A stretch of 64,000 nt of DNA from Sphingobacteriaceae bacterium (lineage in GTDB: Bacteria > Bacteroidota > Bacteroidia > Sphingobacteriales > Sphingobacteriaceae): the NCBI GenBank assembly GCA_017745075.1, contig JAGIAD010000002.1, positions 1 through 64,000 on the forward strand. The letters are read 5' to 3'. Below, piece by piece: positions 45,913 to 46,942 of this stretch (positions within the stretch are counted from its first letter, which is position 1; the number at the start of each line of letters is the position of its first letter). The notes under the pieces were generated by a model. It was not told the origin of the DNA. It saw only the letters and a program-made list of their open reading frames with translations, and did not search any database. Both the position numbers and the translations under genes were made by a program.

Positions 45913-46389
45913 TTAGCCCAGCTCAATCTGTCTTTTAATGCTTTCTTCTAGCGAAATTAATGTTTCTGTACGCTGGATGCCGGTTACGGCCTGGATTTCT
46001 TCATTTAAAACATGGCGCAGGTGATTGGTGTCTCTGCAGATAATTTTAGCAAACATACTATAAGCACCTGTGGTATAGTGTAACTCTACCACTTCTTTAA
46101 TTTTACTCAGCTGGGCAACCGCATCTTTATATTGGATACCTTTTTCGAGGTAGATGCCCAAAAAGGCGCAGATGTCATAACCTGCTTTCTGCGGATCAAT
46201 AATGAGGTGAGAGCCTTTTATAATGCCCATTTCCTGTAGTTTCTTCATCCTGACGTGTATCGTTCCGCCCGAAACAATAAGATCTTTAGCAATTTCTGTA
46301 TAAGGTTTAGTGGCATCCTGCATCAATTGTTTCAATATATCGATGTCGAGGTTGTCAATTTCTAAATTGGAATTGTCTTTTTTAAGCAT
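45913..46389 (-). CDS. Lrp/AsnC family transcriptional regulator
   Basis: LDIDILKQLMQDATKPYTEIAKDLIVSGGTIHVRMKKLQEMGIIKG. Confidence 0.95.
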   Translation of the reverse strand: MLKKDNSNLEIDNLDIDILKQLMQDATKPYTEIAKDLIVSGGTIHVRMKKLQEMGIIKGSHLIIDPQKAGYDICAFLGIYLEKGIQYKDAVAQLSKIKEVVELHYTTGAYSMFAKIICRDTNHLRHVLNEEIQAVTGIQRTETLISLEESIKRQIELG

Positions 46390-46462: not shown

Positions 46463-46494
46463 TTTGCAAGGTATTGGATGTTCTTTTACATTTG
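46463..46494 (+). promoter_or_regulatory. Bacteroidetes-type promoter upstream of the tRNA-like pair
   Basis: TTTG (46463-46466), 20-nt spacer, TACATTTG (46487-46494): fits the TTTG-N19-21-TAnnTTTG consensus. Confidence 0.6.
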
Positions 46495-46545: not shown

Positions 46546-46659
46546 TGTAGGGTGGTGAAACAGGCAGACACACCTCCTTGTCTCGGTGGCGGAGAATAAT
46601 GGGAATATACCGGTAACGGTACTAACCACTCCTTGAAGGTTCGATTCCTTCCCCTACAG
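46546..46659 (+). tRNA. Class II tRNA-like gene 1; nominal anticodon GTC, 45-nt variable region
   Basis: TGTAGGG/CCCTACA acceptor, GTG/CAC D-stem, CCTCC-TTGTCTC-GGTGG anticodon arm, GAAGG-TTCGATT-CCTTC T arm. Confidence 0.75.
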
Positions 46660-46663
46660 CGGC

Positions 46664-46733
46664 TTTAGTCCTAAGTCAAGAGTCAATTGTCTTTAATAGA
46701 CTAACGACTGCAGGCTATGGACTAATGACTAAA
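46664..46733. repeat. Palindromic heptamer array (10 x 7 nt) filling the spacer between the tRNA-like genes
   Basis: TTTAGTC CTAAGTC AAGAGTC AATTGTC TTTAATA GACTAAC GACTGCA GGCTATG GACTAAT GACTAAA. Confidence 0.7.
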
Positions 46734-46734
46734 T

Positions 46735-46879
46735 TGTTGGGTGGTGAAATTGGCAGACACGCCTCCTTGTCTCGGTGGTGGGGAATAATGGGACAAACGC
46801 AGTTTATTGGGTTGACCACAAATTAATTTTTTGAACTGTAGCTAACTACCCCTTGAAGGTTCGACTCCTTCCCCAACAG
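46735..46879 (+). tRNA. Class II tRNA-like gene 2; nominal anticodon GTC, 76-nt variable region
   Basis: TGTTGGG/CCCAACA acceptor, same D-stem and identical anticodon arm, GAAGG-TTCGACT-CCTTC T arm. Confidence 0.75.
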
Positions 46880-46909: not shown

Positions 46910-46942
46910 GAGCAATCCTGGATAGGTTGCTCTTTTTATTTT
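46910..46942 (+). terminator. Rho-independent terminator after tRNA-like gene 2
   Basis: GAGCAA TCCTGGATAGG TTGCTC TTTTTATTTTT. Confidence 0.8.

Follow-up and report, generated by a model that had tools for sequence, protein, structure and literature searches.

The window analysed here is a stretch of 64,000 nucleotides from a Sphingobacteriaceae genome, and it carries two tRNA-like RNAs in tandem, the first with a short and the second with a long variable (V) arm (Table 1). A first-pass annotation of this DNA had drawn attention to two variable regions of unusual length; these proved to be parts of two complete tRNA-like RNAs, and the sequence and coordinates that it gave were correct apart from small adjustments to the acceptor stem, which has 7 bp, and to the extent of the full RNAs. 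The tandem pair is present in nearly every same-genus genome sampled. A match to the Bacteroidota-type promoter pattern lies 5′ of copy 1, and in 26 of 29 same-genus loci the pattern is found 47–55 nt upstream of that copy; copy 2 is followed by an intrinsic terminator-like hairpin and a T run. The spacer between the copies contains degenerate AGTC-rich repeats and resembles the spacers at other loci of the same genus. On one side the pair is flanked by a divergent gene for an AsnC-type regulator and on the other by a LacI-type gene.

Table 1. Features of the tandem RNA locus, in window coordinates
Feature	Position	Strand	Basis
Divergent gene for an AsnC-type transcriptional regulator	45913-46389	-	NCBIfam AsnC model
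Bacteroidota-type promoter TTG-N-TACATTTG, 5′ of copy 1	46464-46494	+	pattern match
Copy 1, tRNA-like RNA of the short V-arm type, U1–C74	46546-46660	+	CM R1/R2 matches, 120-124 bits
Copy 1 anticodon GUC and C38	46580-46582, 46584	+	invariant in 82/82 family sequences
Copy 1 variable arm	46591-46632	+	sequence plus covariation
Copy 1 V arm, outer stem	46591-46594/46629-46632		
Copy 1 V arm, second helix TGG/CCA	46600-46602/46626-46628		
Copy 1 V arm, tip hairpin	46608-46612/46617-46621		
Spacer	46660-46734		
Copy 2, tRNA-like RNA of the long V-arm type, U1–C74	46735-46880	+	CM matches, 104-108 bits
Copy 2 anticodon GUC and C38	46769-46771, 46773	+	sequence, identity tally
Copy 2 variable arm	46780-46852	+	RNAalifold on 23 long-type members
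Copy 2 V arm, outer stem	46780-46783/46849-46852		
Copy 2 V arm, inner stem	46800-46806/46832-46838		
Copy 2 V arm, motif GGGTTGACCAC	46809-46819		
Hairpin resembling an intrinsic terminator, with T run, 3′ of copy 2	46910-46937	+	read directly: GAGCAATCC..GGTTGCTC-TTTTT

Both copies adopt the common fold TGTAGGG-TG-GTG-(D loop)-CAC-A-CCTCC-TTGTCTC-GGTGG-N-(V arm)-TT-GAAGG-TTCGAYT-CCTTC-CCCTACA-G-C, in which the acceptor comprises seven pairs when the U at 46546/46735 is counted (TGTAGGG/CCCTACA in copy 1, TGTTGGG/CCCAACA in copy 2). An acceptor of 6 bp was ruled out because the U at −1 pairs. The single-sequence minimum free energy fold was not significant for either copy (z = −0.8 and +0.3), so that the structure is supported by comparative evidence only. 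Judged by covariation, the acceptor, D, anticodon and T helices of a cloverleaf are all present. An alignment of 82 distinct sequences from the family gave a covariation score of 0.170, as compared with 0.077 after shuffling, and 116 two-sided compensations as compared with 26 (a level reached in 0 of 500 shuffles). For 56 distinct sequences from the class, nearly all of them from families other than Sphingobacteriaceae, the scores were 0.368 and 0.171, and both sides had changed at 19 pairs. In both sets covariation was above every slid control and, on most measures, above each of the 500 shuffles. Within the family the acceptor, V and T arms covary, while the D and anticodon stems are near-invariant; outside it these two stems covary as well (anticodon stems CCTCC/GGTGG, CCCTC/GGGGG, CCGCC/GGCGG and CCCGC/GCGGG), and class-wide all helices do so. 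The fourth acceptor pair, for which an A-U to U-A exchange had been noted between the two copies, is found as A-U, U-A, G-C or G-U across homologues.

Copy 1 contains CACCTCCTT, which matches what we take to be the 3′ end of 16S rRNA. An anti-Shine–Dalgarno mimic was nevertheless rejected; many copy 2 sequences, and other families (CCCTC, CCGCC), have an altered core, so the element is identified as the anticodon stem rather than as a conserved anti-Shine–Dalgarno sequence.

Covariation of the outer V stem, inferred in the first-pass annotation from the two copies alone, was borne out in the alignment of homologues, where G-C, A-U, U-A and G-U exchange at three of the four pairs (GGAG/CTCC, GGGG/CCCC, AGAG/CTCT, GAAG/CTTC). 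The second V-arm helix, GG/CC, is conserved, and GAN and UAA strands flank it; the resulting internal loop resembles what is presumably the UAA/GAN motif. A GNRA tetraloop/11-nt receptor in the V arm was also considered and discarded, its strand order being unsuitable. Two types of tip occur class-wide. The short type, that of copy 1, is a hairpin that covaries and in most cases ends in a GNRA-type loop; in copy 1 itself the arm comprises the GAN/UAA internal loop and a hairpin with a GTAA loop. The long type, that of copy 2, is a domain with GGGUUGACCAC and a covarying stem, the inner stem of Table 1, whose outer five pairs show 7–11 two-sided changes each in 23 long-type sequences folded with RNAalifold. 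The motif GGGTTGACCAC in the copy 2 arm is nearly invariant, and the domain GGGAYAAAC / GGGUUGACCAC / UG / GCUAAC is common to many families of the class. The near-invariant GGGUUGACCAC lies in a junction-like loop of the long V arms, with optional extra hairpins on either side, and this region has the look of a domain that binds a ligand or a protein. Covariation in alignments of many homologues thus supports the earlier proposal of a selected RNA structure whose tip varies in length, with two qualifications. The motifs flanking the inner stems are conserved but not invariant to the letter (5′ GGGA(C/T/A)AA, 3′ (G)CUAAC), and the tip varies in length but not freely, since it is a covarying hairpin in copy 1 and a conserved domain in copy 2.

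Neither copy was reported by ARAGORN or matched in Rfam, where RF00005 was absent even at E ≤ 5; a low-threshold Rfam match to tRNA-Sec (15 bits) was a misalignment. Background matches to the covariance models were to tRNA-Leu, a class II tRNA that the RNAs resemble in their Leu-type D-loop, in having 1 nt before and 2 nt after the V stem, and in their 7/5 acceptor/T stems. They differ from tRNA-Leu in carrying G73 rather than A73, GUC with a pyrimidine at 37, and a far longer V arm with nested conserved structure. With tRNA-Asp they share G34, U35, C36, C38, G73 and G2-C71, but not the V arm, which is of class II, nor G1-C72, which is replaced by U1-A72; position 37 is U, C or G, and U33 is sometimes lost.

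Strong aspartate determinants are G73, G34, U35, C36 and C38, with G1-C72 and G2-C71 also important; U1-A72 permits amidation of Asp-tRNA-Asn by GatCAB, while G1-C72 prevents it (2023 identity review, PMC9976931). We tallied these positions in 137 distinct sequences from across the class. The full set of G34, U35, C36, C38, G73, G2-C71 and U1-A72 was present in 133. U1-A72, G2-C71, U35, C36, G73 and C74 were invariant, G34 was found in 134 and C38 in 136. All 137 sequences therefore lack the G1-C72 element of tRNA-Asp and have the first pair expected of a GatCAB substrate. The U33 and purine 37 of a decoding tRNA are not maintained: position 37 may be U, C, G or A, with a purine in just 11 sequences (10 G, 1 A), and U33 is replaced in 15. 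As far as sequence can indicate, bases kept for AspRS and GatCAB together with loose positions 33 and 37 are what would be expected of an RNA read by these enzymes and not by the ribosome. Four distant members (L358, L384, L391, L397) have a broken identity set, with U34 or C34, or A38, and are perhaps decayed or of altered specificity. A role in filling an Asp decoding gap was rejected, as the same genome has an ordinary tRNA-Asp (GTC) twice, alongside Leu tRNAs with TAA, TAG and CAA.

Members throughout the family were retrieved with a covariance model built from 22 copy 1 sequences; a second model, built from 91 members, was used to search 395 genomes of the class. The RNA was present in 43 of 81 Sphingobacteriaceae genomes sampled and in 59 of the 395, 47 of these being outside Sphingobacteriaceae, in at least 17 other families. 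The 81 family genomes were searched for GatB, AsnB, AsnA, AsnRS and GlnRS as well as for the RNA. GatB was encoded in 43/43 genomes with the RNA as compared with 11/38 without it (P = 5e-13, Fisher, no correction for phylogeny). E. coli-type AsnB, recognised by a two-piece match to TIGR01536, showed the opposite distribution, 0/43 as compared with 21/38 (P = 2e-9, Fisher, related genomes treated as independent); two examples that were checked scored 920 and 937 bits, against an AsnB equivalog cut-off of 499. AsnA was found in none of the 43 family genomes with the RNA, and only in genus g39, which is without it. The absence of AsnA and E. coli-type AsnB, expected for tRNA-dependent asparagine synthesis, and the presence of the amidotransferase, expected if the RNA is a GatCAB substrate, are thus both seen. 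In the genome of the window the sole TIGR01536 protein above cut-off scores 285 on the AsnB model (cut-off 499) and sits among polysaccharide-export and glycosyltransferase genes, so that in this one cluster checked the protein is of another type than AsnB, and ∼11 genomes with GatB and the RNA have no good TIGR01536 match at all. Class-wide, GatB accompanied the RNA in 59 of 59 genomes, against a base rate of 307/395.

E. coli-type AsnB occurred in 21 of 27 family genomes lacking GatB and in none of the 54 that have it; the remaining six without GatB have neither route and all belong to a single genus, whose genomes are small. These genomes, of genus g29 (G064, G089, G106, G118, G128, G138), measure 1.0–1.8 Mb, lack GatB, AsnA, E. 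coli-type AsnB and the RNA, and are predicted to be asparagine auxotrophs. Nine of the 11 GatB-positive family genomes without the RNA have no GlnRS, indicating that GatCAB is needed there for Gln-tRNA; where GatB and GlnRS are both present, 41 of 43 family genomes carry the RNA. In the exceptions, G071 and G134, no intact RNA was found. G071 (L339 1501-1610 / L404 989-1098) retains an intact 5′ half joined to an unrelated 3′ half and is without E. coli-type AsnB; its RNA has possibly been interrupted by insertion or rearrangement. Both states, RNA with GatB and AsnB, are present in genus g44, so the switch happened within one genus.

The best NCBIfam match of the neighbouring regulator is AsnC (178.7 bits, below the curated cut-off of 227), followed by LrpA at 70.5. 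Of 21 family loci, the window included, 16 have an AsnC-type gene divergent from the RNA. The other five are arrays or additional copies whose genomes carry the RNA elsewhere too, and four of those other copies were seen with a linked AsnC-type gene. Some genera have arrays of 3–5 evenly spaced copies (L149, L135, L137) besides the AsnC-linked locus, and array and extra loci are without the regulator. At the class-level loci tested an AsnC-type gene, of 50–63% identity, adjoins the RNA in most. None was found beside asnB at eight loci in GatB-negative genomes. The divergent placement of the AsnC-type gene next to the RNA, seen across the class, parallels that of asnC next to asnA in E. coli. 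The E. coli regulator is an activator of asnA, an effect that asparagine damps (PMC8707732).

Among the relatives examined, the RNA is found only where the normal asparagine-making enzymes are absent, and it is therefore probably a cofactor for amino-acid synthesis and not for protein synthesis. RNA structure, identity elements, linkage and enzyme co-occurrence and exclusion are all observed, while charging, amidation, release and regulation are inferred; with that distinction, we believe it probable that both RNAs are tRNAs that serve asparagine synthesis alone and not translation. Ordinary AspRS would recognise GUC, C38 and G73 and charge the RNA with aspartate, GatCAB would recognise U1-A72 and amidate Asp to Asn on the RNA, and asparagine would then be freed by hydrolysis for normal use by AsnRS. 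The pyrimidine at 37, the loss of U33 in some members and the huge V arm would disfavour the ribosome, and so keep an Asn-loaded GUC ‘anticodon’ from misreading Asp codons. Transcription may be controlled by the adjacent AsnC-type regulator in response to asparagine. The release step, itself an inference, lacks an identified enzyme, and accommodation of a class II V arm by AspRS has to be assumed. U1-A72 also speaks against the proposal, because bacterial tRNA-Asp has G1-C72, which helps E. coli AspRS.

tRNA-dependent asparagine synthesis in Deinococcus, Thermus and Bdellovibrio proceeds by AspRS and GatCAB acting on tRNA-Asn (PMC4206432). The present case is similar in having a U1-A72 RNA, GatCAB, and AsnRS and GlnRS without AsnA or AsnB (PMC4206432), but that route employs a translating tRNA-Asn and a non-discriminating AspRS, while here the RNA is separate and non-coding and asparagine must be released. 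The main rival explanation is that asparagine is made on ordinary tRNA-Asn by a relaxed AspRS and GatCAB, as in Bdellovibrio, with the tRNA-like RNA an accessory: scaffold, decoy or sensor. Such a route has already been suggested for Bacteroidetes genera that have AsnRS, GlnRS and GatCAB but no Asn synthetase (PMC4206432). The tRNA-Asn of the same genome also carries U1-A72, so this ordinary indirect route would be possible if AspRS were relaxed. AspRS, however, has the same RDLG motif in the GatCAB-positive and GatCAB-negative genomes compared, a motif that we take to mark the discriminating type; Asp-tRNA(Asn) then need not be a GatCAB substrate, and a discriminating AspRS suffices for a separate RNA that carries the Asp anticodon. 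Furthermore, the RNA keeps C36 and C38, which are needed for AspRS and not for an Asn tRNA, and its retention in 41/43 GatB-positive, GlnRS-positive genomes also speaks against this explanation. We consider this explanation unlikely.

It is rather improbable that the aspartylated, perhaps amidated, RNA serves as donor towards another non-ribosomal product, for example a modified lipid, peptide or wall component, instead of free asparagine. Donor roles are known for dedicated non-translating tRNAs, and the variable copy number, with arrays of up to five, would fit; mutual exclusion with AsnB/AsnA and the AsnC-type linkage nevertheless point to asparagine itself. Allo-tRNAs and cell-wall tRNA-Gly are likewise atypical tRNA-shaped RNAs beside a normal set, but have other scaffolds and roles, and none is known to be tied to GatCAB and loss of asparagine synthetase (PMC7609411). 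We are more sceptical still of a regulatory RNA, or a titrator of AspRS or GatCAB, that monitors the supply of Asp or Asn but is not itself an intermediate in biosynthesis; the AsnC linkage is compatible with it and the conserved domain of the long V arm could be a sensor, but the absence of every metabolic asparagine synthetase from genomes with the RNA would be left unexplained. Least credible is a Ser-accepting class II RNA charged by SerRS on the strength of its long V arm and G73: by the prevailing view the anticodon is not read by SerRS, whereas GUC and C38 are kept throughout the class; the V-arm geometry, with 1 nt before and 2 nt after the stem, is Leu-like; and a Ser-accepting RNA should show no link with GatCAB. 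In its favour, a Leu scaffold given G73 can change its identity to Ser (PMC9976931).

Genomes with AsnRS, GlnRS and GatCAB but without asparagine synthetase are a noted puzzle, for which the explanation has been a relaxed AspRS that works on tRNA-Asn (PMC4206432). For Bacteroidota, the RNA offers a different answer. The open-access literature describes the genomic puzzle and no such RNA, subscription papers and preprints not being covered; the RNA family appears to be new, within the known tRNA-dependent synthesis of asparagine. If the asparagine-making role is correct, a tRNA has been turned into a metabolic cofactor that works off the ribosome. On balance we think that in Bacteroidota this widespread class of non-coding tRNAs stands in for asparagine synthetase, as a reusable RNA cofactor with which a free amino acid is made, and that the conserved V-arm domain of the long form may be a binding site for a partner protein or a ligand sensor. 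Since the RNA is found in many genera, is absent from Rfam and is missed by ARAGORN, genome-based predictions of auxotrophy in these bacteria would be affected.
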